From a virus, in the IMG/VR virus record IMGVR_UViG_3300032236_000552, positions 35,865 through 99,864 of that record: a stretch of DNA of 64,000 nucleotides; one strand, given 5' to 3'. The notes under the pieces are model-generated. The model ran no database searches. It had not been told where the DNA came from and saw nothing but the letters and a program-made list of their open reading frames with translations. Below, one piece after another: positions 13,559 to 54,755 of this stretch; within the stretch, counting starts at the first letter, position 1, and every line of letters begins with the position of its first letter. The position numbers and the translations under genes were made by a program.

Positions 13559-13873
13559 ATGGAAGAACCAGAGCACACTTGGCGATATGAGGCCCGTTGC
13601 CAAGGCGAAGACACGGATACTTTCTATCCGCCAAGAGATAAAGAGCAGTACAAAATCATTGCTACTCAAGCAAAGTCATTTTGCTTTGGTGACAATCGCA
13701 AGAATCCTTGCCCAGTTCAAAAGCAATGCTTATGGGATGCGGTAAGTAGAGAAGAGCCACACGGTATATGGGGTGGCTTGAGTCACAGAGAAAGAAATGC
13801 TTTAATACGTAAGTGGCAAAAAACCTACAAAAAGAAGATGACCTTGAAGGAGTTCATTTTCAGTAAGGACTAA
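13559..13873 (+). CDS. WhiB-like Fe-S transcription regulator
   Basis: 104 residues. Four cysteines (C14, C42, C51, C57) and the hallmark GIWGGLSHRER turn define the WhiB family, which binds a 4Fe-4S cluster and contacts the primary sigma factor. Cys2-Cys3 spacing is 8 residues rather than the usual 2, because of an extra GDNRKN-type loop, so cluster geometry may differ. The C-terminus is basic (KWQKTYKKKM), as expected for DNA contact. This gene is the best evidence for an actinobacterial host. Confidence 0.88.
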   Translation: MEEPEHTWRYEARCQGEDTDTFYPPRDKEQYKIIATQAKSFCFGDNRKNPCPVQKQCLWDAVSREEPHGIWGGLSHRERNALIRKWQKTYKKKMTLKEFIFSKD

Positions 13874-24085: not shown

Positions 24086-24574
24086 ATGAACATACTTCTA
24101 TCACTAGACGGCGTACTAAGTTCGGAATCAGGGGAACCAATCCGAGCAGGAGTCGCTCTTTACTACGCCCTAAACATTAACAACCGAGTCGCACTTATGA
24201 CTGCCCGTGGCGAAGAAGACGCCAAACATTGGTTACAGTCGCACGGAATCATTAACTACGATGACTTGATTGACTCTTCTTTTGCCCTAGAAGGCGAAGA
24301 CCTAAAGAAGAGACAGTTCACTGTTAGTCGTAGCCGTGCCCCGATTGAGATGTACGTAGACTCAGACCCAACCATGTGTGCATGGGTATTTGAGACTCAG
24401 AACGTCCCTTCTGTCCTGTTCGCTCACCCAGCCTACCTACGAGTAGAGAACCGCCCAGATGCCCCTCGTAAGGTTCGTAAGTGGTCAGACATTGAGGACT
24501 CGATTACTCGTGTAAACATTGCTAGGTCAATAGATGCCCAGAAGCCTAGAGACCTAGAGTTCTGGGAAGACTAA
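24086..24574 (+). CDS. HAD-like protein with altered nucleophile
   Basis: 162 residues. ILLSLDGVLSSESG aligns with the HAD motif I strand, but the usual first Asp (FDLDGT) is Ser. ALMTARGEEDAKHWL is motif II, and MYVDSDP is motif IV-like. It may have lost phosphatase activity and act as a binding protein. It ends in LEFWED, one of several C-termini here with an LW/FW-acidic tail. The stop overlaps the next ATG. Confidence 0.55.
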   Translation: MNILLSLDGVLSSESGEPIRAGVALYYALNINNRVALMTARGEEDAKHWLQSHGIINYDDLIDSSFALEGEDLKKRQFTVSRSRAPIEMYVDSDPTMCAWVFETQNVPSVLFAHPAYLRVENRPDAPRKVRKWSDIEDSITRVNIARSIDAQKPRDLEFWED

Positions 24575-26079
24575 TGAGAATCGTCTTTAGCGGAGCCGAG
24601 GTAGGCTCTAACCGTACCCTTTTGGAAGGTCAGAAAGTTGAGTTGATGGGACTCAACTTTTGGGGCTTACGCAAAAGAGGTTTGCCCAAGAATAAGATTT
24701 GGCTGATATCAGAGCACTTCCATGAGGACACCAAAGTCATCATTGAGTCTGGAGCGGCCCAGGCAGATAAGGCAGGACTCTCTAAAGAAGAGTTACTTTC
24801 TTTAGCAGCCGAATACCAGGAGTTCCTGGTCAATAACGCAGACAGGGCCACAGCGTTTACTGAGTTTGACTCCCTAGTTTTGGGAAAGGACTGGGTAGAA
24901 GCCCAGCGCCCCTTCTTTGAGAACGACCCAAAGTACTGGGTGGTCTGGCATGAGGAGTACGGTCTGCCAGCCCTCAAAGCGCTCTCTGAGGACTACGAGA
25001 ACGTCGTTATACCCAACGCCGAGATTGAGTCTGTAACCAGCCTCTCAGCCCTCACAAGGGCGTATGAACGTCAATTCGGAACACGGTTCCACGCCCTTGC
25101 CTGTGCCAAGCCAGACAACCTACGACAGATACCATTTGTGACCGCCAGCACATTGTCATGGCTATCTCCCATGCGGAGAGGCGAAACAATCGTCTGGGAT
25201 GGAACCAAGTTGAACCGCTATCCCAAGCGGATGAAAGACCAAGCCAGACCTCGATACAAGGCTATTGTGGAGAAGGCTGGACTGGACTATTTAGAGTTTA
25301 GTAAAGATAGTACCCTCGAAGCGACTAGAGTTGCAGTCTGGTCATACCTACAGATGGAGTCCTCCATGGATAAGAAAACCCCCAACTTCCACATCATCGA
25401 AGGCGGCAAAACCCCCAACTTATCTGATAACAGCGAGGATACCCTATATAGCAGTTTGATGGATTTAGGGGGGGTACCATCTGATAACAGTGGTGTTGAG
25501 ATGCGGAAAAATTCGCCAACTGAACTGGTAGAACGTGACGCTTCTGAGAAGGTAAACCTCCCTGTTTTCGGCTACAAGATGAAGACTGTGGTGGAAACCA
25601 ACGAGGACGGTAAAGACGTTCTCATGGACGTCCCTGTTGTTCAGACTCAGCAATCTTCTTTACGCCAGTGCGATACCTGCTTTGTGGCATCGAACTGCCC
25701 AGCCTTCAAGCCGCAAAATACCTGTGCCTTTAACCTGCCGATTGAGGTCAAGACCAAAGACCAACTCAAGGCTCTCATGGTCTCAATGATTGAAATGCAG
25801 GGTCAAAGAGTCGCTTTTATGCGTTTTGCTGAAGAAATGAACGGTGGATACGCTGACCCTAACGTCTCTCAGGAGGTTGACCGCCTCATTAAAATGGTCA
25901 AGGAAATCAACGACATGAACTCTGATAAAGAGTTTGTTCAGATAACCGCCAGCCGTCAATCCTCTGGTGGAGTCCTGTCTGCTATCTTTGGTGACAGGGC
26001 ACAAGCCCTAAAGGAACTCCCAGAGTCCCTGAAGGAAGACACTGTTACAAAGATTATCAAGTCTTCTATAGAAGATTAG
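24574..26079 (+). CDS. Unknown large protein with Cys cluster (501 aa)
   Basis: Residues 1-245 are mixed alpha/beta and contain repeated KTPN segments. The middle (about 260-320) is acidic and low-complexity and carries two DNA copies of the motif ATCTGATAACAG. Then CDTCFVASNCPAFKPQNTC (about 364-382) resembles a zinc or Fe-S site. The C-terminal 120 residues are helical. Not recognised. Two copies of a possible operator inside the gene, and a third just after it, are unusual. Confidence 0.65.
   Translation: MRIVFSGAEVGSNRTLLEGQKVELMGLNFWGLRKRGLPKNKIWLISEHFHEDTKVIIESGAAQADKAGLSKEELLSLAAEYQEFLVNNADRATAFTEFDSLVLGKDWVEAQRPFFENDPKYWVVWHEEYGLPALKALSEDYENVVIPNAEIESVTSLSALTRAYERQFGTRFHALACAKPDNLRQIPFVTASTLSWLSPMRRGETIVWDGTKLNRYPKRMKDQARPRYKAIVEKAGLDYLEFSKDSTLEATRVAVWSYLQMESSMDKKTPNFHIIEGGKTPNLSDNSEDTLYSSLMDLGGVPSDNSGVEMRKNSPTELVERDASEKVNLPVFGYKMKTVVETNEDGKDVLMDVPVVQTQQSSLRQCDTCFVASNCPAFKPQNTCAFNLPIEVKTKDQLKALMVSMIEMQGQRVAFMRFAEEMNGGYADPNVSQEVDRLIKMVKEINDMNSDKEFVQITASRQSSGGVLSAIFGDRAQALKELPESLKEDTVTKIIKSSIED
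25420..25433. repeat. TTATCTGATAACAG copy 1
   Basis: First of three near-identical copies within 700 bp; contains the inverted repeat TTATC-T-GATAA. Lies inside the coding region of the upstream gene. Confidence 0.7.
25479..25490. repeat. TTATCTGATAACAG copy 2 (12-bp core)
   Basis: Core ATCTGATAACAG, inside the same gene. It is shifted to a different upstream context (CC before the core), so the match is to the core only. Confidence 0.6.
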
Positions 26080-26252: not shown

Positions 26253-28268
26253 ATGGGATTGTTCTCGTTTGAACTAGCAGGGGAATTCGTTGAGTCATAC
26301 AAGGGTAAGAAGGCTCCCTTTGGGTATAGGGATGCCGCTGGAAACTCTGTGGGGGAAATCACATTCCTCCGTACCTATTCTCGCCTAAAGGCAGATGGTA
26401 CTAAGGAGACATGGGTGGACGTTTGCCAGAGAGTTATCAACGGCATGTACTCCCTCCAGAAAGACCACGCCAAACTCAACCGTCTTCCATGGTCGGACGC
26501 CAAGGCAGCAGCCTCGGCTAAAGAAGCCTTCGACCGTCTTTTTAACTTGAAGTGGACTCCACCAGGACGAGGCTTGTGGGTCATGGGAACCCCACTCGTA
26601 AATGAGCAACGCAACTCAGCCGCTCTACAGAATTGTGCCTTTGTATCAACAGGCTCGATGACCAAGACAGACCCAGCCAAACCGTTTGCCTTTCTCATGG
26701 AAGCCTCAATGCTCGGAGTGGGCGTTGGGTTCGATGATAAGGGTGCAGATAAGGACTTTACAATCTATGAGCCAGTACAAGGTGATACCTATGTTGTCCC
26801 AGACACAAGAGAAGGATGGGTTGACTCAACAGCGACCCTCCTCAATGCTTACCTACGACCAGATTCGAAGGTACCAGTATTTGACTACCAAGAGATTCGC
26901 CCAGCAGGAGCACCAATCAAAACCTTCGGTGGCACCGCAGCAGGACACGAACCTCTAAAGAAGTTACATGACTTCATTAACGACATGTTCAAGGGCCGTT
27001 CTGGTCAGAAGTTAACTCGTCGTGACATTGCAGACATTGGTAACGTCATTGGCGTTTGCGTTGTCTCAGGCAACGTCCGTCGTTCAGCCGAACTTCTTAT
27101 GGGACGCTTGGACGACCAAGACTTCTTAAACCTAAAGAACTATGAGAAGTACCCTGAGCGTATGTCTCATGGATGGATGTCCAATAACTCTGTTGAGGTA
27201 TCCGTAGGACAAGACCTATCTCCAATCATTGACGGTATCGCCCGCAACGGTGAGCCTGGAGTTATCTGGATGGACGTGTCTCGTCAGTATGGTCGACTTG
27301 CTGACCCAATCAACAATAAGGACTGGCGCATCGCTGGTTACAACCCTTGTGCTGAGCAGTCACTAGAGTCTTATGAGTGCTGTACATTGGTTGAGACTTA
27401 TCTCAATCGCCATGATTCTTTAGAAGACTTCAAAAGAACTTTGAAGTTTGCTTACCTCTATGCCAAGACTGTGACTTTGATTCCTACCCACTGGCAAGAG
27501 ACCAACGCCATCATGCAACGTAACCGCCGTATTGGAACCTCAATCTCAGGTGTGGCTAACTTTGCAGACAACAACGGCTGGTCTGTTTTGCGTACATGGA
27601 TGGACGAAGGCTATCGAGTCATCAAGGGTTACGACGTGAACTACTCAGAGTGGCTCGGTATTCGTGAGTCCATAAAGACGACTACCGTTAAGCCTAGTGG
27701 CACAGTTTCAATCCTTGCAGGTGAGTCCCCAGGCGTTCACTGGGCTTCAGGTGGCAAGCACTTCCTTCGTGCGATTCGATTCAGCAACAACGACCCTATG
27801 CTTCCGCTATTTAAGATGGCGCAATATAAGGTTGAACCTGCAAATGAGTCGCCAGAGACTACGAGTGTTGTCTTTTTCCCTGTAGAGACTAATGCTAAGA
27901 GAGCCGAAAAAGAAGTTTCAATCTACGAGAAGGTTGCTTTGGCAGCGGCAGCACAACGCTACTGGTCAGACAACTCTGTATCTGTGACTGTTACCTTTGA
28001 CGCTGACAAGGAAGCAGAGAACATTGAGTCTGTACTGCACATGTACGACGGTCAGTTAAAGACGATTAGTTTCCTTCCTATGGGCAACATGGTCTACCCA
28101 CAGATGCCATACACCCAAATCACTGCCGAAGAATACGAGGAAGCAACCATGAGTCTCTTCCCCATCGACTTCGCTGGTGTCTATGCAGGTATGGCGGCAG
28201 ACGCCGTAGGTGAGGCTTATTGCACCACAGATGCTTGTGAAGTAAAACTGATTAAAGACAACCAGTAA
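26253..28268 (+). CDS. nrdJ: Class II (B12-dependent) ribonucleotide reductase
   Basis: 671 residues, in the size range of monomeric class II reductases. LQNCAFVSTGSM holds the first active-site Cys, NPCAEQSLESYECCTLVETY the thiyl-radical Cys region, and GTSISGVANF the core turn. The end YCTTDACEVK supplies the C-terminal Cys pair. It makes deoxynucleotides using adenosylcobalamin and works without oxygen. TTAGGAAATGG gives the ribosome site. It is not next to the other nucleotide gene (dNMP kinase, 15 kb). Confidence 0.9.
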   Translation: MGLFSFELAGEFVESYKGKKAPFGYRDAAGNSVGEITFLRTYSRLKADGTKETWVDVCQRVINGMYSLQKDHAKLNRLPWSDAKAAASAKEAFDRLFNLKWTPPGRGLWVMGTPLVNEQRNSAALQNCAFVSTGSMTKTDPAKPFAFLMEASMLGVGVGFDDKGADKDFTIYEPVQGDTYVVPDTREGWVDSTATLLNAYLRPDSKVPVFDYQEIRPAGAPIKTFGGTAAGHEPLKKLHDFINDMFKGRSGQKLTRRDIADIGNVIGVCVVSGNVRRSAELLMGRLDDQDFLNLKNYEKYPERMSHGWMSNNSVEVSVGQDLSPIIDGIARNGEPGVIWMDVSRQYGRLADPINNKDWRIAGYNPCAEQSLESYECCTLVETYLNRHDSLEDFKRTLKFAYLYAKTVTLIPTHWQETNAIMQRNRRIGTSISGVANFADNNGWSVLRTWMDEGYRVIKGYDVNYSEWLGIRESIKTTTVKPSGTVSILAGESPGVHWASGGKHFLRAIRFSNNDPMLPLFKMAQYKVEPANESPETTSVVFFPVETNAKRAEKEVSIYEKVALAAAAQRYWSDNSVSVTVTFDADKEAENIESVLHMYDGQLKTISFLPMGNMVYPQMPYTQITAEEYEEATMSLFPIDFAGVYAGMAADAVGEAYCTTDACEVKLIKDNQ

Positions 28269-29544: not shown

Positions 29545-30870
29545 TCACTCCAAATAGTCATTAACAACCTCGGCTGCCTTTGACTGCTGGTGACGGATAC
29601 GGTGCAGATAACGCTCCGTCGTTGTTATCGACTGGTGACCTAGACGCTCTTTTACCTCATGGACATCAACGCCTTTTGTTAGAAGGAGAGTGGCGTTGGC
29701 GTGCCGTAAGTCGTGCGTTGTTGGATACCAGCCAATACTTGACTGGGTTATGGCTTCGTTCCAAATGGCTCGCCATTTATCACGAGGTAGATAGTCTTCG
29801 CTTTTGCTAAGGCTTTGGCTTCTGCTATTGCTTCTGCTACGGCTTTGGCTTTTGCTAAGGCTTTCTACTTTGCCTTTCGCTTTGTCCTTTCTATAGTGAC
29901 TGCGGTAATCCTTTACCGCTTGCTTGCATTGGTCACACCTACAACCTCCTACGTTGTACGAGTAGGGTGTTGCGTGTTGGAATGTTCTGCTTCCAACGGT
30001 GTAACTTCCTTTGCTTTTGCTAGGACTTACTATTTTACTTGGCTTCTCTACAACTTGCTTCGAGAAGACCAAATCTTCTTTTGATAGGGCTTTTGCTGAG
30101 ACAAACGCCTGGATTTCGGCTATCAACGAAGAACTTAGTGTAACAGTCCTCTTATGACCGTTCTTTGTGCGTGGCTCTACCGCAAATCTTCGCAGGTCGG
30201 AACTATATTTTTTGCCTACATCTGAGACTGTTCTTCTTATATACACTTCTTTTGAGGTAAAGTTAAAGTCTTTAACACGCAACTCTGTTGCTTCTCCAAA
30301 CCGACAACCAGAACCCATCAGAAATCTGGCAAATAACTTTGCGCCGTCTGTGGGTAACTTCTTTACGATAGCCTGAAAGTCTTTAGCGTCTAGCGTGTAG
30401 GTTGGGTCGGGTCTTACTATCTGAACTTTGATACGGTGGGTTGGGTTGGTTGGGATTACCTCATCATCAACGGCTAACCTGAATAGGTATCCTAGAGCCG
30501 TTTTGAGGTGGGAGATTGTGCTAGGGCTTATGCCCTGCTTCTGTAAGTCCTCTAGCAACTTACGTATATCTTGCTTCTTGATTGCGGTCATCTTCTTGCC
30601 TTCTAAAGTGGGCTGGGCATACTTCTTTAGAAGGGTGGTGTAAGTCTTTTTAGTGATAGCCCGTAGGTCTCGTCTCTCCAGCAATTTGTCCATATAAGTA
30701 TCGAACGTCTCTTGGTATTCGGGCAGGGTCTCAAACTCTCCTGCTTCGGCTAGGAGTCCTGCATTTAGGGCTTTGGCTTTGGTGGGGTAAGTTCCCACGC
30801 TTTTTGTCTTGCCCTCTGAATTGCGGTAATAGCCTGTATAACGCTTGTTACGTTCGACTACATACGCCAT
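29545..30870 (-). CDS. int: Tyrosine integrase with inserted CRC domain
   Basis: 441 residues. The N-terminal 40 residues are arm-type DNA-binding (AYVVERNKRYTGYYRN), and the core-binding SAM-like domain runs about 50-150. Catalytic residues are R190 (GSGCRFGEATEL), H386 and R389 (HDLRH), H412 (GHQS) and Y421. Between about 270 and 360 sits an insertion: a HxTPYSYNVGGCRCDQC motif (C310, C312, C315) and a Ser-Lys/Arg/Gln repeat. GGGGG at 8 bp supports the MAYVV start at 30870 rather than 30900. It would integrate the phage in the host chromosome; no attP core could be identified. Confidence 0.9.
   Translation of the reverse strand: MAYVVERNKRYTGYYRNSEGKTKSVGTYPTKAKALNAGLLAEAGEFETLPEYQETFDTYMDKLLERRDLRAITKKTYTTLLKKYAQPTLEGKKMTAIKKQDIRKLLEDLQKQGISPSTISHLKTALGYLFRLAVDDEVIPTNPTHRIKVQIVRPDPTYTLDAKDFQAIVKKLPTDGAKLFARFLMGSGCRFGEATELRVKDFNFTSKEVYIRRTVSDVGKKYSSDLRRFAVEPRTKNGHKRTVTLSSSLIAEIQAFVSAKALSKEDLVFSKQVVEKPSKIVSPSKSKGSYTVGSRTFQHATPYSYNVGGCRCDQCKQAVKDYRSHYRKDKAKGKVESLSKSQSRSRSNSRSQSLSKSEDYLPRDKWRAIWNEAITQSSIGWYPTTHDLRHANATLLLTKGVDVHEVKERLGHQSITTTERYLHRIRHQQSKAAEVVNDYLE
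29805..29875 (-). repeat. Hexamer-based repeat in integrase gene
   Basis: Minus-strand units AGCAAA, AGCCAA, AGCCGT and AGCAGA encode Ser-Lys/Gln/Arg repeats. Shares a 16-base core with the transglycosylase repeat, read in a different frame; a shorter patch is at 30009-30024. Confidence 0.8.
30189..30201 (-). repeat. 13-bp repeat TTCGCAGGTCGGA, copy 1
   Basis: Inside the integrase gene, encoding SDLR. Same orientation as all other copies. Confidence 0.75.
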
Positions 30871-30894
30871 GACTTGCCCCCTTTGTGTGGCGTG

Positions 30895-30917
30895 GGTCAC
30901 GTGTGACCTACATCACA
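30895..30917. promoter_or_regulatory. GlxR/CRP-type operator and palindrome at integrase promoter
   Basis: TGTGACCTACATCACA (30902-30917) fits TGTGA-N6-TCACA and the GlxR form TGTGANNTANNTCACA exactly. It overlaps the palindrome GGTCACGTGTGACC (30895-30908). It lies between the proposed -10 and the integrase start, so binding would probably block transcription. Confidence 0.55.
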
Positions 30918-36538: not shown

Positions 36539-38539
36539 TTAAGCATTAACCAAACGGCGTGAGATAGCAATACGCACTAGGTCTTTACCGAGTGTGAGAA
36601 TATCTCGTGCAGTTTTGATATTAGTCATTAACTCAAACTCGTGGCGATAACGATTAAGAACATCATCATTTAAGTCTGAGTCATAGAGAAGTGCTTGGCA
36701 GGTAAGGACACCAGCGTTACGCATTTCTGTAACTGCTTGCTCTCCTTCTTTTGTATCCCATGCACCGTCAGTAATCATAAAGAGGATTTTGATTGGCTTC
36801 TTGCTCTCAGCCAAAACTCTCTTAGCAAACAAAAGAGACTCACATGGATTTGTTCCACCGCTTGCTCCTCCGTCACGAATAGTTGTACCTGCTCGTTCAT
36901 CAGCACCATAAAGAAGTGTTGTGCCGTAATCGAATAGTGCAACTGTTGTACGTGCTTGCACACGCTCTAGTGCAGACTTAATAGCCCACATGGATTGGTA
37001 AGCATGATTGGCTGAGTCACCACTCATACTGCCCGACTTATCAAGGAGGATAACTGCCTCAATATCGCAAACATCATCTATGCCCTCAGTCCATGAGTCA
37101 AAGATTGTGTCGAAGTCTGCTCCTTGTATATAACGCTGAACGTTCACCTTTCCAGTATCGGTAGCACGCAACCATGCTGGGTCATAATCAGAACGCAAAC
37201 GCTCTAGTTCACGACCAAACGATTTAGCAACACCGATTAACTCAGGAGGAGTTGCAACGTCTTTGTAGTTAGCACGTTCAGGAGTCTTAGCGTTACCGCC
37301 GTCAAGGTCGCTAGAGATACCTAACTGTTTTGCAATTCGATTAACTTCTTTAGAAAGTTCTTTTGCAACATCATTAAATATATCTTGCAACGTATCTGTG
37401 ACTTGTTGATTGTCTCCTGTTGTTCCAATGCTTGTACCAATGCCCTTGCCACCTTCTTGTGGTGAAGGACTGTCGTACTCGCTATCGCTTTCAGTATCAG
37501 AGTCACCGTCACCGTCAGAGTCACCGTCACCGCTACCGTCAAAAGGCTTACCGCCATTACCGTTAGCAGTATTGGTATCGTCTTTAGCAGTATCGCTATC
37601 GCCGTTACCTTCATCATCAGACTCATCAGCAGGAGTATCAAGAACAACATCAAGAACAACATCACCCTTCTTAGGAGAACGTTGCTTGTCTTTTTCTTGT
37701 TCTGATTTTTTCGCAGGTCGGACGTTGCTTGACTCGTATCCGTCTGTTGGTCGGTGGTCGTGTCCATGAGGATTATGCACTCGCACCCAAACGTCACGTC
37801 CACCTTCTCCTTCACCTTCACCGTTGCCAGTATTAACTGGTGGAAGGTTCTTTAGAAGTTCTGCATACTCTGTAATGAGTTGGTATGCAGTCTCGGTCAC
37901 TTCATCATTACCAGTAAGAATTAAATCGTTGTATTGGTCAATGATTTCAGCGAACGCATGAATATCTTGTGGGTTCTTAAACTTATCTACCGACAACTGG
38001 CGCAACTCAACTGGTAGATAAGTGCGACCATAGATAAGTGGGAAAGAAGTTGCTACTGCTTCCTCGTTCTGAATTAGATAGTCAGCGATTGTTGCAGTAA
38101 GCCAACCTTCCAATGGTGGGAGATAGCCAACGAGTAAGTTCTCGATACGCATATCCTCTAAAGAATTAAAGGCTTGCCATAACTCACGAGAGTTATCAGA
38201 CTCTTTAATCTTGATAACAAGATTGCTTCCGTTTCTTGGCGTATAACGCAAATGAGCGTACTCATGGAAGCAGAGACCTTGCAACGACAAAATTGACTTA
38301 GCAGTGAAGTCATATTTAATTTCTGCAAGATTAAAACTTACTGACGAAGTGCTTGACCATGCAGGGGCAGGATACTCAGGACGATTAACGATATTGACTT
38401 TAATCTTGCGACCAGTCAAAACGCTAAGTGTCTTAGTGAATATCTCACCAAAAGACTGTAAGTGATTTTGCTTTTTGATTTGTAATTCTTTTTCTTTATC
38501 TGTCTGTTCTACTGCAAACTTCGGCATTACGGTAGTCAT
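36539..38539 (-). CDS. VWA-domain protein with HEXXH motif, CobT-like
   Basis: 666 residues. Domain order: N-terminal region with CFHEYAHLRYT (H92-H96, zinc metallopeptidase-type HExxH), a middle linker very rich in Asp, Ser, Gly and Glu (about 280-370), and a C-terminal VWA domain with the MIDAS turn DKSGSMS (about 500) and TDGAW. This order resembles CobT and DUF2201-type proteins, which partner with a MoxR/CobS AAA+ ATPase; such an ATPase is encoded directly upstream. Role unclear: chelatase subunit or chaperone. Confidence 0.8.
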   Translation of the reverse strand: MTTVMPKFAVEQTDKEKELQIKKQNHLQSFGEIFTKTLSVLTGRKIKVNIVNRPEYPAPAWSSTSSVSFNLAEIKYDFTAKSILSLQGLCFHEYAHLRYTPRNGSNLVIKIKESDNSRELWQAFNSLEDMRIENLLVGYLPPLEGWLTATIADYLIQNEEAVATSFPLIYGRTYLPVELRQLSVDKFKNPQDIHAFAEIIDQYNDLILTGNDEVTETAYQLITEYAELLKNLPPVNTGNGEGEGEGGRDVWVRVHNPHGHDHRPTDGYESSNVRPAKKSEQEKDKQRSPKKGDVVLDVVLDTPADESDDEGNGDSDTAKDDTNTANGNGGKPFDGSGDGDSDGDGDSDTESDSEYDSPSPQEGGKGIGTSIGTTGDNQQVTDTLQDIFNDVAKELSKEVNRIAKQLGISSDLDGGNAKTPERANYKDVATPPELIGVAKSFGRELERLRSDYDPAWLRATDTGKVNVQRYIQGADFDTIFDSWTEGIDDVCDIEAVILLDKSGSMSGDSANHAYQSMWAIKSALERVQARTTVALFDYGTTLLYGADERAGTTIRDGGASGGTNPCESLLFAKRVLAESKKPIKILFMITDGAWDTKEGEQAVTEMRNAGVLTCQALLYDSDLNDDVLNRYRHEFELMTNIKTARDILTLGKDLVRIAISRRLVNA
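37710..37722 (-). repeat. 13-bp repeat TTCGCAGGTCGGA, copy 5
   Basis: Inside the VWA gene, encoding VRPAK. Confidence 0.75.
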
Positions 38540-38619: not shown

Positions 38620-39963
38620 TTACGCAACAACTTCGCTTTCGAGATGAGAACGGTGTGCTTCCAAAAGAAGTTTCACACTTGCCTTCTCATCATCTCGGAA
38701 GTTGTTAAGGAAGTTATCAACTGCATAGTTGTAACTAATATCTCTAGCAAACTTCTCAAAGTTCTTTAGAAGTCTTGTAGAGATTGGTGTCTCATAAACA
38801 CCAGCGATTGCTTCCTCACGCATTTGTTGTGCGAGGCGTAGCAAGGTCGGTGACTTAATAAACTGCTTCTCAATTTCGATGTCGTACTCGAAAGTCCACT
38901 TGTGTTGGAAGCGGTCAGCGAACGCTTGATTAAACTCTTGCGTTCCACGATAACCTCGTGAAGCAGGATTGTAAGAACCGATAAGCAAGACATTTTCTCC
39001 TGCTTCGATTACTTCGCCCTTGTGGTCTAGCAATATCAACTGACGGCGTGAGTCCAACGTTGGGTGAATTGCAGAGGAAAACTTAGAGGGCATACAAGAC
39101 AACTCATCTAAGTTAATAACTGCATTTCCATTACGCCAGCACTCTGTAAAACCACCGTCTTGCCAAACAAGATTGCCTTGCTCGCTAGGAATAACCTTGC
39201 CGAACAACTGTCCTGTATCTATGCCAACGTTAAAGTTCACCGAGTAATAACGCAAACCTCTTTTGCTTGCATAGACCATGCCACTTGTTGTCTTACCAGT
39301 ACCAGCGTCTCCTGCAATAAGGATATTGTGACCGTTCTTCATGGCGTAGTCGTACAACTCTGTTTCAGTTTCACCACTTGCAAACGTGCGTTCGACATAA
39401 CCTGAGATTTCAGGATTGCTTGCAGAAGGTACGAACGACAATGAGTTTTCATCAAAGTTGTGTTCGATTGCTTGCAACGGTTCACGAACAACCTTAATGA
39501 CTGGTGCTGGTGCAACTGTTGTCTGTGCTTTCGTTGCAGACTTATCTGAACGTCCGTCAGAACGATAAGCAGACAATAGGTTGGGGTCTTGTTGTATCAA
39601 AGTATCAACCTCTTTCAGTAAGTCTCCAACTGTTTTGTTAGAGACTGATTGGTGACGTAAGCGATATTGCTTCGTCAATTTCTGAATTAGAACAACTGGG
39701 TATGAATTGTTAGCGAGTGCAGACTGGTCTGCTTCTGTAAGTGGTGTTGATAGAACCTCACCGACAATAAGGTCGGTGTAAGTATCAGCGTTAGAAATAA
39801 TTGTTTCGTAATCAAGCGCATTAGTCCAAGCGTTGCTTTCGCCTCGCCCTCCATTTGTAATGCGAGTAAGTGCGTACTGCTTACCGTTATGGCTTGCGAG
39901 TAATAGTTGTTGCAAAGTATCTGCTTGTGAAGTCTTACCTGTAATGAGAATTGCATACGACAT
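38620..39963 (-). CDS. MoxR/CobS-like AAA+ ATPase
   Basis: 447 residues. Walker A GDAGTGKT (218-225), Walker B AVINLDELSCM (about 280-290), sensor-1 GSYNPAS and RGT-type turn are those of MoxR/CobS proteins. The first 200 residues are a variable N-terminal arm with an acidic, low-complexity section. Its usual partner is the VWA protein encoded just downstream, with the two genes joined by the hairpin/repeat unit. Confidence 0.85.
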   Translation of the reverse strand: MSYAILITGKTSQADTLQQLLLASHNGKQYALTRITNGGRGESNAWTNALDYETIISNADTYTDLIVGEVLSTPLTEADQSALANNSYPVVLIQKLTKQYRLRHQSVSNKTVGDLLKEVDTLIQQDPNLLSAYRSDGRSDKSATKAQTTVAPAPVIKVVREPLQAIEHNFDENSLSFVPSASNPEISGYVERTFASGETETELYDYAMKNGHNILIAGDAGTGKTTSGMVYASKRGLRYYSVNFNVGIDTGQLFGKVIPSEQGNLVWQDGGFTECWRNGNAVINLDELSCMPSKFSSAIHPTLDSRRQLILLDHKGEVIEAGENVLLIGSYNPASRGYRGTQEFNQAFADRFQHKWTFEYDIEIEKQFIKSPTLLRLAQQMREEAIAGVYETPISTRLLKNFEKFARDISYNYAVDNFLNNFRDDEKASVKLLLEAHRSHLESEVVA

Positions 39964-46893: not shown

Positions 46894-47180
46894 TGACACT
46901 AAAGAGCAAAGCCAAGAAGGTTTACGGTCCTTATCCAGATAAGGCTGAGGGCGGTCGTATGAAGATGACCATTTACGACCCAAAGACTGGTAAGAACACT
47001 GGCAGCACTTATGCCGCCCGTTACAAGAAAGAAAAAGAATTAGGTCGCACTCTTCCTAAGACAGAGCAAGTTGACCACAAGAACAACAACAAGAAAGACG
47101 ATAGCGCCAAGAACCTTCAGGTGATGAGTCGTTCTAAGAATATTGCAAAAGGCAACCAACACAGAAAGAAGAAAAAGTAA
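46893..47180 (+). CDS. HNH endonuclease-like protein (95 aa)
   Basis: QVDHKNNNKKDDSAKNLQVMSRSKN matches the HNH signature (D-H, N-N) of phage homing endonucleases, here in a small basic protein (Lys-rich end). It may cut DNA lacking it, or help packaging, as some HNH proteins do near terminases. Its neighbours are the tiny genes and the endolysin. Confidence 0.7.
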   Translation: MTLKSKAKKVYGPYPDKAEGGRMKMTIYDPKTGKNTGSTYAARYKKEKELGRTLPKTEQVDHKNNNKKDDSAKNLQVMSRSKNIAKGNQHRKKKK

Positions 47181-47992
47181 TGGCACTAGGAAATGTAGGA
47201 AACCCAGTTCCACCAGTTACCACTGCACAACCAGGAACAGTAGAGCGTATGCTTGAGGTTGCTAAGTCACAGGTTGGTGTTATCGAGGGTCCAAAGGATA
47301 ACGAAACACTTTACGGCGCTTTTACAGGCGCTAACTTCCAGCCATGGTGCGGCTCACTCATGATGTGGTGTGCAAAGCAGGCTGGCGTAACAATCCCTAA
47401 CACTGTTTACACACCTAACGGTGCAGCAGCATTCAAGAAGGCTGGTAAGTGGGCAGATGCAGCAAATGCTCATCCACAACCAGGCGACTTGATTTACTTC
47501 TCATTTATCCCACACGCACTTCCATCTAGCCCAATTCAACATGTGGGGATTGTCGTAAAGGACAATGGAGACGGCACTGTTACAACCATCGAAGGAAATA
47601 CAACCCCTGACTCAAAGCCAAAGGGTTCTCCTAACAATGGTGGCGAGTGCGCCATGAACGTCCGTGCATACAAGGTCGATAACAAGCGCCACCTCTGGTG
47701 CTCTATCGTCGGTTTTGGACGCCCAGACTACGCAGGTGCCGCAACAGACTCACACCCAGCCACTCCACCTGCCCCTAAAGCGGTCCCACCGTTCCCAGGA
47801 CAGGTTAAGCCAGGCGACAAGGGTGATGCGGTCAAGTTGATTCAACAAGCCCTTGATTTGGACGCTGATGGCGATTACGGCCCTGCTACCAAGAAGGCTA
47901 TCATCGCTATCCAAGACAGCCACGACGCTATCGATTCTAACGGAATCGTCGGTCCTAAGACTTGGGCCGAAATTATGAAGCATTTGGACTAA
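47180..47992 (+). CDS. Endolysin: CHAP peptidase + peptidoglycan-binding domain
   Basis: 270 residues. CHAP domain with C57 (QPWCGSL), H121 (HVGIVV) and N140 (IEGN). After a Pro-rich linker (about 185-200), a PG_binding_1 domain carries DLDADGDYGPATKKAI and GIVGPKTW. It cuts peptide bonds in the wall at lysis. No signal peptide, so it needs the holin. Its stop is followed by a good terminator. Confidence 0.9.
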   Translation: MALGNVGNPVPPVTTAQPGTVERMLEVAKSQVGVIEGPKDNETLYGAFTGANFQPWCGSLMMWCAKQAGVTIPNTVYTPNGAAAFKKAGKWADAANAHPQPGDLIYFSFIPHALPSSPIQHVGIVVKDNGDGTVTTIEGNTTPDSKPKGSPNNGGECAMNVRAYKVDNKRHLWCSIVGFGRPDYAGAATDSHPATPPAPKAVPPFPGQVKPGDKGDAVKLIQQALDLDADGDYGPATKKAIIAIQDSHDAIDSNGIVGPKTWAEIMKHLD

Positions 47993-48008
47993 TCGGACAT
48001 TGAACACA

Positions 48009-48040
48009 ACCCCTCTAGCCTCTGGTAGGCTAGGGGGGTT
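48009..48040 (+). terminator. Terminator after endolysin gene
   Basis: AACCCCTCTAGCC and GGCTAGGGGGGTT pair with one mismatch around TCTGGTA, followed by TCTCAC. Moderate U-tract. Confidence 0.7.
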
Positions 48041-48061
48041 CTCACATTACTAGGAGGCAAG

Positions 48062-48634
48062 ATGACGACGATTGCAGCGATTCAGGGTAACGGTTGGGTT
48101 GTTATGGGTGCAGATACCCAAAGCACCGTTTCTGAATATAAGAGACTGAAGATGTCGAATGACAAAGTAATCGACAACAACGGAATCCTTATTGCTGGTT
48201 GCGGCATGGGTCGTGGCATGGATTTGCTACAGAAGGCGTGGAAAGCGCCTCGCCCACGCAAGGCACGTATGACTGTAGATGAACTAGACGCATGGATGGC
48301 AAAGACCTTCATCCCTCAAATGCGTAAGTTGTTTATCGACGGTGGATACGACATGAAGGATGATGGCGAGTACGCACAGCACGAAGGTGCGTTCATTGTC
48401 GCTGTACAGGGCGTTGTGTTCTACATTGACGACGACTACTCATTTGACCGTGAGGCTCGTGGTGTTACTTCGTCAGGTAGCGGTGGAGATTTTGCCGCAG
48501 GTTCTCTGTATAAGAAAGACCTCAGCACACTTGAGAAGGCAAAAAAGGAAATGGCTACTGCCATTGACGCTGCTAGAGAATACGATGTGTACTCTGGTGG
48601 AGAGACTAGGATTTATACACAAGTCGCAAAATAA
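48062..48634 (+). CDS. Proteasome/HslV-like Ntn-hydrolase
   Basis: 190 residues. The start MTTIAAIQGNGWVVMGAD matches the HslV/beta-type start in which Met is removed to leave Thr (T2) as nucleophile. D18 and K35 fit the catalytic Asp and Lys, and GSGGDFAAGS is the conserved GSGG turn. No HslU/ClpX unfoldase is encoded nearby. It may degrade host or phage proteins, perhaps with a host ring ATPase, or be a self-processing protein without proteolysis. Confidence 0.75.
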   Translation: MTTIAAIQGNGWVVMGADTQSTVSEYKRLKMSNDKVIDNNGILIAGCGMGRGMDLLQKAWKAPRPRKARMTVDELDAWMAKTFIPQMRKLFIDGGYDMKDDGEYAQHEGAFIVAVQGVVFYIDDDYSFDREARGVTSSGSGGDFAAGSLYKKDLSTLEKAKKEMATAIDAAREYDVYSGGETRIYTQVAK

Positions 48635-48648
48635 GATAGGGTTAATAC

Positions 48649-48954
48649 ATGGAACAACTTTCAAATCGACAAAAGAAAATCGAATTAGGCAAGGCTCGTC
48701 AGTTAGAGACCTTGTTCGCTAAGCGACGCCAAGAAGCAGAAGAGCGCTGGACAAATGCTCAAATCAAGGCTGCAGGGTTTCAATCCGTGCTGGACTATGC
48801 GGTTGACCAATACACGCAGCACAAAGACGAGTTAGAAGAAGAAGTGATTACTAAAACAGAAGAAATGATTAAAGAACGTCAAGAAGAAATAAAGCAGTTT
48901 CTTATGACAGAGAAAGATATCTATTTAGAAAAGATGGGAATACAGGCGGACTAA
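48649..48954 (+). CDS. Coiled-coil protein (101 aa)
   Basis: Almost fully helical and charged (KIELGKARQLETLFAKRRQEAEERW); a coiled coil. Directly follows the HslV-like gene, so it could be a partner. No family recognised. Confidence 0.6.
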   Translation: MEQLSNRQKKIELGKARQLETLFAKRRQEAEERWTNAQIKAAGFQSVLDYAVDQYTQHKDELEEEVITKTEEMIKERQEEIKQFLMTEKDIYLEKMGIQAD

Positions 48955-48955
48955 T

Positions 48956-49279
48956 ATGAACCCAAGTGATTTTGGATTAGAAGTAACAGTAGAGATTATC
49001 AATCCTGCAGAAGCAGAAGCATACCTAAAGAACAATGCTATGCACCGTAAGATTAAGCAGAAGAAGGTTGATGAATACAAGAACCAGATGGTGGACGGTA
49101 AGTGGCAACTCAATGGTAAGGCTCTTATCTTTGACTCCAACGGTCGTCTACTCAATGGTCAACATCGCCTTAGTGCCGTTGTGCAATCTCAAGTCCCACT
49201 CACCACAGTTGTGATTCGTGGAGTTGACCCATCGGTTCTAGAGACTAATCCTGAAAATGGCGTCATAATTGAGGAATGA
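48956..49279 (+). CDS. ParB/sulfiredoxin-like protein
   Basis: 107 residues. FDSNGRLLNGQHRLSAVVQSQ is the GQHRL-type ParB/Srx motif. Phage members bind DNA or act as nucleases; this one lacks other ParB parts. ATGA overlap with the next gene. Confidence 0.65.
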   Translation: MNPSDFGLEVTVEIINPAEAEAYLKNNAMHRKIKQKKVDEYKNQMVDGKWQLNGKALIFDSNGRLLNGQHRLSAVVQSQVPLTTVVIRGVDPSVLETNPENGVIIEE

Positions 49280-49737
49280 GTAAAAACCACGAATTCGAAA
49301 CTGGCTCTAACAAGCGCAGTAAGAAGGCTGTGATTTTTGACCTAGATGGAACACTGGCGGATATAGAGGATTATGAAGCGCTCCACAAAATTGATAGCGA
49401 CGAGTTTCGTGTTGCTGCTCGTCATGCCGAGGCTTATCCACACATTGTGGCTTTGGCAAAAGAGGCGAGAGCCAAAGGACGAGATGTAATCATCCTGACC
49501 GCCAGGTCAGCCCACTATAGGGACGACACCAAAAAGTGGCTTCATGCCCATGACGTCCCTTATGACCAACTCTTTATGCGCCCTATCGATAACCACGAGA
49601 AGGACAAGAAGGTCAAGAAAGAGATTCTGAAAGAAAACGTCTTGCCTAATTTTGAGGTCAAGAAAGCCTACGATGACAAGAAAAAGAATGTTAAAATGTT
49701 CCGTAGTGAAGGCATAGACGCAAAGAGGGTAAATTGA
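49276..49737 (+). CDS. HAD-family polynucleotide 3'-phosphatase-like protein
   Basis: 153 residues. FDLDGTLAD is motif I with both Asp intact, IILTARSAHYRDDTKKWL is motif II, and AYDDKKKNVKMFRSEGI is the end typical of T4 PNK phosphatase-type domains. Removes 3' phosphates from nucleic acids. No kinase domain is present. It is the intact counterpart of the altered HAD protein at 24086. Confidence 0.7.
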   Translation: MSKNHEFETGSNKRSKKAVIFDLDGTLADIEDYEALHKIDSDEFRVAARHAEAYPHIVALAKEARAKGRDVIILTARSAHYRDDTKKWLHAHDVPYDQLFMRPIDNHEKDKKVKKEILKENVLPNFEVKKAYDDKKKNVKMFRSEGIDAKRVN

Positions 49738-49889
49738 AGAAGCAAAAGCCACAGTTGGTTCAACCTACTTCGGGGGACTTTCGTCTAAACCAAACTGCAC
49801 CCATATTCAATGACAGGCGCACAAAACGTAATCGTGACCGTTCGACACAATCTCGGCAAGCAATCGAACGGAGTAAAGATGAAAGATAA
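49734..49889 (+). CDS. Small basic peptide (51 aa), TTG start
   Basis: TTG overlaps the upstream stop; AGAGGG precedes it. Strongly basic (RRTKRNRDRSTQSRQ). It overlaps the holin start by 11 bp. Could be a lysis regulator or nucleic-acid binder; unproven. Confidence 0.4.
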   Translation: MKKQKPQLVQPTSGDFRLNQTAPIFNDRRTKRNRDRSTQSRQAIERSKDER

Positions 49890-50325
49890 CTTGAAACTTT
49901 TTTATAACATTATTTTCCGCATTATTGCGGCATTCACTGCAAGCGCCCTTGGCGTTATCGGTGCTGGTGCTGTAGCGGGTATCTCAACTATTAAGGCTAT
50001 GAGCGTTGCAGGTATTACTGCCGTTGCTGCTGTTGTTGAGAAGTTGGCTCGTGGATTCATGGATGATGGCAAGTTGACTCTCGATGAGATTAACGCTGCC
50101 TTCTCTGCGATTGACACTCAGGCTAAGACTGCTGCTGACCTTCAGGTTGAAGCACGTCAGGCAGGAACAGACATCACTGTAGGTGCAGACGGAACTATCA
50201 AGGCCGCTGCTCCAGCAGCACCAGCAGATGCTCCAGCAGCAGATGCTCCTGCTCCAGTTGTTGCTGACGGTCCTGCTCCAGTTGCAGTTCCAGCAGAAGC
50301 CGCTACAAACCCAAACTACAACTAA
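49879..50325 (+). CDS. Holin candidate (148 aa)
   Basis: Start at 49879 (MKDNLKLF) with GGAG upstream. Two hydrophobic segments (about 10-25 and 28-55, IIFRIIAAFTASALGVIGAG and ISTIKAMSVAGITAVAAVV) are followed by an acidic, Ala/Pro-rich C-terminus of 70 residues. This fits a two-helix holin in a lysis module with the endolysin. A virion membrane protein is possible. Confidence 0.6.
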   Translation: MKDNLKLFYNIIFRIIAAFTASALGVIGAGAVAGISTIKAMSVAGITAVAAVVEKLARGFMDDGKLTLDEINAAFSAIDTQAKTAADLQVEARQAGTDITVGADGTIKAAAPAAPADAPAADAPAPVVADGPAPVAVPAEAATNPNYN

Positions 50326-52310: not shown

Positions 52311-54755
52311 TTGACCAGACTACGTTTATACGTAGCACAATTCGTATTACTAGTTAGCGCTCTATATCCGCTATTACTTGCATCACCAGCACACGCTGAT
52401 ACCTACACATTAGACCAGTACAACGCACAGGTTGCTGCTGCTACTGATGCGGTTCAGGCTGCTCAAACAGCGCTTGACTCTGCCAATGCAACTCTTTCTG
52501 CAGACATCACCGCAAAGGCTATTGCTGACCAAGCAGTGGTAGATGGCGCTACCGTAGTAGCACAAGCGCAGGCTGCTTATGACAACAGTTCTATCCCAGT
52601 AGTCTCACAAAATGGTTCTGGTATTCACGTAGATATTTACAACAATACTTACCATACTTTTTCCCCTAACCCATCAACCCTGTGTCGTTCAGACACGTTT
52701 TCTCAGATTGCTGCTAACTGGGGCAATGGTTCCGTTGCTGGGTGTAATAGTGACCGTGTGACCATCCATTACACAGGAACACTTACTGTTCCAACAACAG
52801 GCTCTTATAGGTTCATGAACATAGCCGATGATGGTTTTTATATGACTTTTAATGGTCAGTTGCTTATTAACGATTGGCGTGACAAAGGCTGTGGAGGTTC
52901 TTGGAGCCAGTACGTCACCCTAACTGCAGGAACCCCGTACCCATTTGATGCTTGGTATTACGAAAATGGTGGAGGCGCTTGTTCTACGCTCTACTATGCA
53001 ACACAAGGCACTAACCAGAACGTAGTTCCAGCATCGTGGTTTGGAACAGCAACAACCGCTTACGCTAAAGATGATTCGCTTCTTCCCGCAATTCAAGCAG
53101 CCCAAACCGATGAGACGAACCGTCAAACAGTAGCCGCTCAACTTGCAAACCAGGTGACTGCAGACCAAGCAGCGGTCGATGCTGCTCAAACATCCCTAGA
53201 TGCAGCAAAAGCAGCCCTTGCTGCTATTCCTCCTATGGAGATAGACCCACCCACAAACCTTGTTGCAACGGTAGATAGTGGAAGCGTAACGTTGAGTTGG
53301 AATGCACCTGCTGCAAATCTTATTCCAGAACGGTATGCAGTAATGTGGACTGTTCCTGGTGCTAATGGTTGGGGAGTAGCCTCTACCACAACTTCAATTA
53401 CTTTAGATAAACAACTATTTTCTTCGACAGGTGGTTGGAATCAGGATTACACATTTACGATTCGTTCTGACCACGATACTGCTCGTCTGTATTCTCAATA
53501 CTCAAATCCTGTGACTGTTCATCTGAATGACCCAAATCCACCAGTTGTCGTAGTGATTCCTCCATCGCCATCCGAGACTCCAACATCCACGGTTGAGAGT
53601 CATACCGTTGTTGACGTTCCCACTCCTTCACCTTCCGAGTCTCCGTCTCAAGAAACCACAACACCGCCAGTCCAAGACACAACAACGGTGCAAACACCAA
53701 TACCGTCACCAAGTCCATCACCTACACCAACACCTTCACCAGAGCCGTCAACAGAACCACAACCACAATCGCCGCCTCAAACAGACACATCAACAGCGAC
53801 AACGCCTTCAGAACCACTTAATCCTCCGTCTGATTCTCAAACAGTGACGGTTGATACCACGACTGCTGTTGTTGTGGATACATCGACTGTAACTGTCCAG
53901 CCTCCATCACCTCAACCTTTGCCTCAGCCTGAGCCAGTGACTCCTGTTGTGGCACCCGTAGTTCGTCCAGAGCCTTCTCCAAAGCCCGCTCCAGCGGAAA
54001 CACCCAGTCCTCAACCCGACCCTTCTCCGACACCTGAACCCTCTGCAAGTGCTTCACCTGCGCCAACACCGACGCCAACTGATACCGCATCTCCTAAACC
54101 CGACCCTTCTGCATCGCCCACAGCAAAGCCAACACCAGAACCAAGCCCGACACCACAACCGACCCCATCACCCACGCCAAGCGCTTCAGCCCAACCCGAA
54201 GTGACTCCTTCACCACAGCCCACCCAACCATCGCCAACCCCAGCGCCAACAGCACCAGCACCTGCTCCCGCATCTGCAAACCTCATTCCTGATAATCCTA
54301 ATTCCTTGTCTGACACTACACCAAAAGTTGCCCCTGCAGAAGTTCTAGTCGCTCACGTTCAGGTAGATAAGCCTGGAGTAGAAAACGGCGGAATTGAGTT
54401 CTTTGGAACAAAGAGCGCCCCACAAGTTGTAGGAGAAGATGGAAAGTTAACTCCTCCTGCTCCACCTCCAGGTTCTGGACTACCCATTCCTCCAGAGGCA
54501 ATCACAGTTGCGTCTACCTTTATCGGACAACCAGGTGGAACTACCTTCAACGCACCAGACGTAGCCGTGCCTGTTATCGAAACCCCAGTTACAGGCGCTA
54601 TTGCAGCAGTACCTGGAGTGCAAGCACTAAACCACGCATTCGTCGCTATGGCGAATATCGGAAACGACATGTCTCCTGTTACAAGAAAGAAAGCAAAGAA
54701 AATCTTGGTAGTGACAACCGTCATTGCCGCCGTTCGTAGAAAGTTTGGTAACTAA
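52311..54755 (+). CDS. Secreted PA14/FN3 protein with Pro-rich region
   Basis: 814 residues, TTG start with AGGGG upstream. Signal peptide (FVLLVSALYPLLLASPAHA) then a coiled coil, a PA14-type domain (about 100-240, FMNIADDGFYMTFNGQLLI), a second coiled coil, an FN3 domain (about 315-400, NLVATVDSGSVTLSWNAP), a long Pro/Ser/Thr/Glu region (PSPSPTP, about 410-650), and a C-terminal region ending in basic residues that may anchor in the membrane. PA14 binds carbohydrate. It is probably a surface or virion protein for host contact; exported by the host. Confidence 0.75.
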   Translation: MTRLRLYVAQFVLLVSALYPLLLASPAHADTYTLDQYNAQVAAATDAVQAAQTALDSANATLSADITAKAIADQAVVDGATVVAQAQAAYDNSSIPVVSQNGSGIHVDIYNNTYHTFSPNPSTLCRSDTFSQIAANWGNGSVAGCNSDRVTIHYTGTLTVPTTGSYRFMNIADDGFYMTFNGQLLINDWRDKGCGGSWSQYVTLTAGTPYPFDAWYYENGGGACSTLYYATQGTNQNVVPASWFGTATTAYAKDDSLLPAIQAAQTDETNRQTVAAQLANQVTADQAAVDAAQTSLDAAKAALAAIPPMEIDPPTNLVATVDSGSVTLSWNAPAANLIPERYAVMWTVPGANGWGVASTTTSITLDKQLFSSTGGWNQDYTFTIRSDHDTARLYSQYSNPVTVHLNDPNPPVVVVIPPSPSETPTSTVESHTVVDVPTPSPSESPSQETTTPPVQDTTTVQTPIPSPSPSPTPTPSPEPSTEPQPQSPPQTDTSTATTPSEPLNPPSDSQTVTVDTTTAVVVDTSTVTVQPPSPQPLPQPEPVTPVVAPVVRPEPSPKPAPAETPSPQPDPSPTPEPSASASPAPTPTPTDTASPKPDPSASPTAKPTPEPSPTPQPTPSPTPSASAQPEVTPSPQPTQPSPTPAPTAPAPAPASANLIPDNPNSLSDTTPKVAPAEVLVAHVQVDKPGVENGGIEFFGTKSAPQVVGEDGKLTPPAPPPGSGLPIPPEAITVASTFIGQPGGTTFNAPDVAVPVIETPVTGAIAAVPGVQALNHAFVAMANIGNDMSPVTRKKAKKILVVTTVIAAVRRKFGN

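Follow-up and report, generated by a model that had tools for sequence, protein, structure and literature searches.

A proteasome-superfamily protease gene of freshwater actinophages: two fixed genomic slots and replacement of the whole reading frame

What does a proteasome-like protease do in a phage genome, directly beside an endolysin gene, and with what partner might it act? Proteasome homologues have been known in phages since 2021, when Fuchs, Alva and Lupas described the phage-borne group I homologues AAH, PPH and CPH; these were catalogued without an AAA+ partner and without informative genomic context, so that neither context nor partner hinted at function (PMC8665760). Here, we focus on a gene of this kind at positions 48062-48634 of a 64 kb stretch of DNA (the window), taken from a virus record of 99,864 bases. 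What is new is the pair of fixed contexts in which the gene is found, a small neighbouring gene (c21) found exclusively together with the protease, and the exact replacement of the whole reading frame between close relatives. Planktophila phages E7 and F5 are in culture along with their hosts, so that the function of the protease can be tested directly.

A proteasome-superfamily protein in freshwater actinophages

The gene and its neighbours in the window are as follows.

47180-47992 (+): CHAP/NlpC-P60 endolysin with PG_binding_1 (CHAP 3.8e-11); upstream border of the slot
48008-48040 (+): stem-loop of 14 bp, terminator-like with a weak T tail, in the endolysin-protease gap
48052-48057 (+): AGGAGG, Shine-Dalgarno sequence of the protease gene
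48062-48634 (+): protease gene, 190 aa; group I, HslV/BPH-type, predicted N-terminal-threonine protease with Met1, Thr2, Asp18, Lys35, oxyanion-type Gly48 and SGSGG at 138-142
48649-48954 (+): c21, 101 aa, all-helical; predicted hairpin of helices 6-61 and 64-96, with a conserved C-terminal GIQxD
48956-49279 (+): gene of PHROG 5931 with weak ParB-like similarity, after c21; not detected in the sampled relatives
49276-49737 (+): PNKP-type HAD phosphatase, in the downstream neighbourhood
49810-50325 (+): conserved cassette gene, PHROG 26427, with sub-threshold holin similarity (PHROG 443, E 0.06)

A holin role for the last product is a guess from this sequence similarity. The host of the window phage is probably actinobacterial, because the window carries a WhiB gene (13559-13873; PF02467, 7e-18). 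Elsewhere, the window encodes a queuine tRNA-ribosyltransferase family protein (PHROG 887; 24574-26079, +), a ribonucleotide reductase (26253-28268, +), an integrase (29545-30900, -) and a secreted-looking protein of 814 aa (52311-54755, +) that combines a PA14 domain (7e-12) with a long stretch rich in Pro, Ser and Thr.

The product of 48062-48634 belongs to the proteasome superfamily; profile cut-off, catalytic signature and predicted fold agree. It matches PF00227 (Proteasome) at E 6.1e-7 and 29.7 bits, above the Pfam cut-off of 22.4, as 13 of 16 relatives match it at E values up to 1, and falls into PHROG 1040, 'peptidase HslV family' (E 1.3e-23); a 16-sequence profile of the protease finds HslV in the PDB at 1.6e-13. 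The AlphaFold model (pLDDT 87.9, pTM 0.86) has the predicted alpha-beta-beta-alpha fold of the Ntn enzymes, with helices at 52-58, 72-93, 142-149 and 157-174, and its closest PDB structures in Foldseek are HslV, BPH and 20S beta (E ~1e-10, TM up to 0.72-0.74). The initial annotation, which had named a proteasome/HslV-like protease next to lysis genes and proposed structure prediction as a check, is borne out in its adjacency to a lysis gene, its fold and its residues Thr2, Asp18, Lys35 and GSGG (139-142). The protein is not HslV proper: it scores 21 bits against an equivalog cut-off of 157.75 (TIGR03692), and this assignment was rejected. The equivalog cut-off for the 20S proteasome beta subunit (TIGR03634) is likewise missed, at 27.1 bits against 224.

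The signature is strongly conserved: Thr2, Lys35, Gly139 and Gly141 are invariant in all 188 distinct homologues, and Asp18 is kept in 184, the other four having Glu. The exchange of Asp18 for Glu is seen in a few otherwise intact copies, for example at loci L035, L069 and L072. No interrupted copy was found among 100 full-length ones, and dN/dS is low (pairwise median 0.13), which indicates purifying selection and is ordinary within each protease type.

For scanning, a 36-row viral alignment was used in place of the wider 16-sequence one, which was too divergent as a seed. A scan of IMG/VR with the protease alignment gave at least 583 confirmed stretches, and the abundance of the family in freshwater actinophages is new here. 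A gene of this kind is also present in the cultured Planktophila phages LanE43AprE7 (E7) and F5 (OX376640/1). The paper on them names no protease or peptidase in its main text, and ranks their hosts, the Nanopelagicales, as some of the most abundant bacteria in fresh water (PMC10202952). A literature search for Nanopelagicales together with the proteasome found no papers. Among cellular genomes, a first contig scan seeded with the phage alignment gave no cellular relative; cellular relatives were reached via a homologue on a Streptomyces plasmid, and the phage profile finds one homologue each in 36 of 395 sampled Actinomycetes genomes (1e-17 to 1e-22).

Two slots and exchange of the whole reading frame

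The protease is an accessory gene that occupies two fixed slots, one after the portal gene and one after the CHAP endolysin gene. When the neighbours in the 94 first-found loci were clustered, the protease followed the portal gene in over half of them, and the common order was TerL - portal - protease - P149 - giant protein. Portal, and then endolysin, served as bait to avoid selecting on the protease itself. The following counts are occupancies and not independent events, because the loci of each set share ancestry and only the best 80 matches of each bait were taken; the metagenomic contigs are, in addition, fragments. Of the freshwater-type loci, 56 extend far enough past the portal gene, and in 38 of these the protease lies 0-16 nt after it; downstream of the endolysin gene, the protease lies at a distance of 13-184 nt in 38 of 72 loci. 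The portal slot is without protease in the other 18 freshwater-type loci and in all 14 Streptomyces-like loci among the same 80 matches; these empty slots hold small genes only, none with protease features, and contain no replacement protease.

The portal-slot order in freshwater loci continues from the giant protein through a scaffold-like gene to the major capsid protein (MCP), which matches PF13252; a search for an HK97-type MCP (PF05065) gave no match. The giant gene between P149 and the scaffold encodes 1550-1780 aa in L059, L085 and L127 and is PHROG 10618 in L015, and Streptomyces podophages have a gene of similar size in the corresponding position. In the window group, the protease is with the endolysin, ~10 kb before TerL. 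The portal slot has a different small gene, c5, which was found only with the protease (nine of nine) and overlaps it by 4 nt in several loci; in the lysin slot, a third protease type, type C (L287-L307), has a separate follower of 57-68 aa, acidic-rich and with conserved Cys/His. Cpn10 (GroES-like) or Hsp20-like genes occur near the protease at L035:8914-9267, L289:6110-6577 and in L031.

Between close relatives, the whole protease reading frame has been exchanged for a divergent homologue while the flanking genes were kept. The DNA of the window is 78-81% identical to that of loci L224, L226 and L228 through the endolysin gene; homology ends at 48042-48074, and the match (76-79%) resumes at 48635, the first base past the protease stop codon. 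At the protein level the endolysins are 86-92% and the c21 products 79-82% identical, against 35-36% for the proteases. The portal slot gives the same picture, L059 and Planktophila phage E7 sharing 76% identity in the portal protein and 34% in the protease. Two deep types of the protease, A with the window protein and B with that of E7, are each found in both slots, and the protease tree needs at least five changes of slot. The replacement could also reflect neutral recombination at conserved flanks.

Partners, proposed role and competing explanations

The initial annotation had suggested a coiled-coil neighbour at 48649 as partner, and co-occurrence supports this: among the best 80 matches, c21 is present in 26 of 38 endolysin loci with an adjacent protease and in none of 33 without, and in a scan seeded with c21 the protease stands immediately upstream in six of six cases. 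In one cluster, the two are separated by ~1.2 kb that includes another gene. In the sampled loci, c21 was found neither in the portal slot nor with type C. Its product is predicted to form a helical hairpin (pLDDT 90.5) with the last five residues flexible, and the C-terminus, YLE..GIQxD, ranks among its most conserved parts; Foldseek against solved structures returned no significant match. From these sequence patterns, c21 may be a partner of the protease in the lysin slot.

The same annotation had also noted the lack of an ATPase gene and called it unusual. No ClpX/HslU-type ATPase (PF07724, AAA_2) scores over its cut-off in the window phage and ten related, possibly incomplete, records, which upholds the first point for that type; absence of a partner ATPase is, however, normal for these homologues (PMC8665760). 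An ATPase of another type is present: a MoxR/CobS-type AAA_5 gene (38620-39963, -; 3.7e-12) lies beside a VWA/CobT-like gene (36539-38539, -) whose match is weak and below cut-off, the two ~8-11 kb upstream of the protease on the other strand. A similar AAA_5 gene occurs in several large relatives and in phage DSL-LC01. Since the portal-slot phages E7 and F5 have no MoxR-type ATPase over cut-off, it is not a general partner of the protease.

The reading we favour, tentatively and at a little under an even chance, is that of an active, ring-forming threonine protease serving as an accessory in conflict or host takeover, with c21 as its activator or adaptor in the lysin slot. Activity, ring, docking of c21 and class of target are inferred along the following lines. 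Ordinary removal of the initiator methionine exposes a threonine at residue 2 as nucleophile; as Thr2 directly follows the start codon's Met1, this step would free it, with no propeptide. Identical subunits would most likely build a ring chamber like that of HslV or BPH. The protease probably works without a dedicated unfoldase, because neither the phage nor the ten related records have a ClpX/HslU-type ATPase over cut-off, and the free C-terminal tail of c21 may dock on it, which would make c21 an ATP-independent activator or adaptor. A slot that is kept while its version is changed points to a changing target, and hence to host takeover, counter-defence or competition; the protease would then degrade changing or resistant proteins of the host or of rival phages. 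In another phage group (L012:4180-5623 and the L043 group), the protease heads a run of DSP phosphatase (PF00782, 4.7e-11), histone-deacetylase-fold protein (PF00850, 3.6e-56) and TerL, which fits host takeover.

Position within the genome bears on two other explanations. A head-maturation or virion protease, expressed together with portal, would trim scaffold, portal or giant internal proteins during capsid assembly. The portal slot, which lies between portal and capsid genes, is the classical place for such an enzyme; the gene follows portal in over half of the first-found loci and does so closely in the 38 occupied freshwater-type loci, and the place after portal would suit a virion role equally well. 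Against this, the same head module exists without the protease in the 18 freshwater and 14 Streptomyces-like loci described above, the window group has its protease with the endolysin, ~10 kb before TerL, and in Arthrobacter phage Pitbull and Microbacterium phage LeeroyJenkins a further, separate gene is annotated as capsid maturation protease. We consider head maturation distinctly unlikely; as the sole role it is disfavoured, and as the general role it was rejected because of the empty slots without replacement and the separate maturases of these two cultured phages. The lysin slot suggests instead a late lysis accessory that would act alongside endolysin, c21 and the putative holin, helping to break the envelope or removing a lysis-blocking protein. 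Adjacency to the endolysin in about half of the endolysin-seeded loci speaks for it, but types A and B are also found in the portal slot, at a distance from lysis genes. Furthermore, a strong stem-loop of varying sequence is present in nearly all type A/B lysin-slot gaps (window, L224-L275), and the type C gaps contain a promoter-like TTGACA...TATACT; the protease is therefore unlikely to be transcribed simply together with the endolysin, and a lysis role seems very improbable.

The remaining explanations concern the biochemistry. The protein could be the peptidase half of a two-part ATP-dependent protease that leaves unfolding to an AAA+ ring of the host (ClpX, ClpC or Mpa/ARC), as the initial annotation had proposed, possibly recycling host protein to amino acids; the HslV-like predicted fold, the lack of a ClpX/HslU-type ATPase in the phage and the streamlined Actinobacteria infected by its cultured relatives are all in keeping with this. 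However, HslV is not listed for Actinobacteria, so that an HslU partner is presumably missing too, and no AAA+ protein co-occurs with any of these homologues (PMC8665760). The phage moreover has its own MoxR-type ATPase, albeit one without a counterpart over cut-off in E7 and F5, and a conserved docking surface would be hard to keep through repeated swaps of versions that are 35% identical; borrowing of a host ring is unlikely. A specific Ntn enzyme, such as a connectase-like ligase or an amidase with a single substrate, would suit the diversity of versions through narrow specificity, connectase being a monomeric ligase within the proteasome superfamily (PMC8665760). The predicted model argues otherwise, lacking the helical S3/S4 insertion of connectase and having the first helix pair that connectase lacks, and we give this explanation a very small chance. 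A narrower form of the favoured conflict or takeover role is itself somewhat unlikely: a two-gene phage system, not described before, in which c21 would be a dedicated, ATP-independent helical activator docking through its GIQxD tail on a self-compartmentalising threonine protease, with the protease alleles exchanged among freshwater actinophages in an arms race over targets in hosts or rival phages.

Comparison with known proteasome homologues and activators

A precedent for a protease with an activating partner is HslV (ClpQ), which in one published account is bound and activated by the C-terminal ends of HslU (PMC6429459). The phage protease resembles HslV in fold, N-terminal Thr, Asp, Lys and GSGG, and HslV is among its best PDB matches in both sequence and fold; the two differ in that HslV has HslU as partner and other neighbours, and no HslU gene accompanies the phage protease. 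The docking motif of the bacterial proteasome activator Bpa/PafE is a GQYL-type C-terminus. The C-terminus of c21 is GIQxD and not GQYL-type, and its fold gave no significant match to Bpa/PafE; the likeness is an analogy between helical hairpins with a conserved free tail, and because no structure matches significantly, c21 is called an activator by analogy only.

By TM-score (0.72-0.74), the closest fold is that of BPH, the beta-proteobacterial proteasome homologue, which nevertheless has other hosts and shares 14-19% identity in the fold alignment. PPH, found in phages and their hosts, is likewise a phage-borne proteasome homologue without an ATPase partner, but it has ~140 aa and lacks helix H2, whereas the phage protease has 190 aa and, in the model, both helix pairs.

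AAH resembles the phage protease in belonging to group I, having neither propeptide nor AAA+ partner and occurring in phages and Actinobacteria, although Fuchs et al. found none in actinobacteria-specific phages (PMC8665760). In the trees, the types of the window and of the freshwater phages branch separately from the AAH-like clade of bacteria and other phages. The window protein falls within the freshwater phage clade and outside the AAH-like one (Rhizobium, Streptomyces, Actinomadura and several other phages; support 100/99), in which the AAH label of the bacterial sequences rests on taxonomy. Proteasome homologues are also encoded by cultured actinophages in SEA-PHAGES, namely Arthrobacter phage Pitbull and Microbacterium phages LeeroyJenkins and Pumpernickel: they are ~25-29% identical to the window protein, yet lie at other genome positions and are annotated only as 'protease'.
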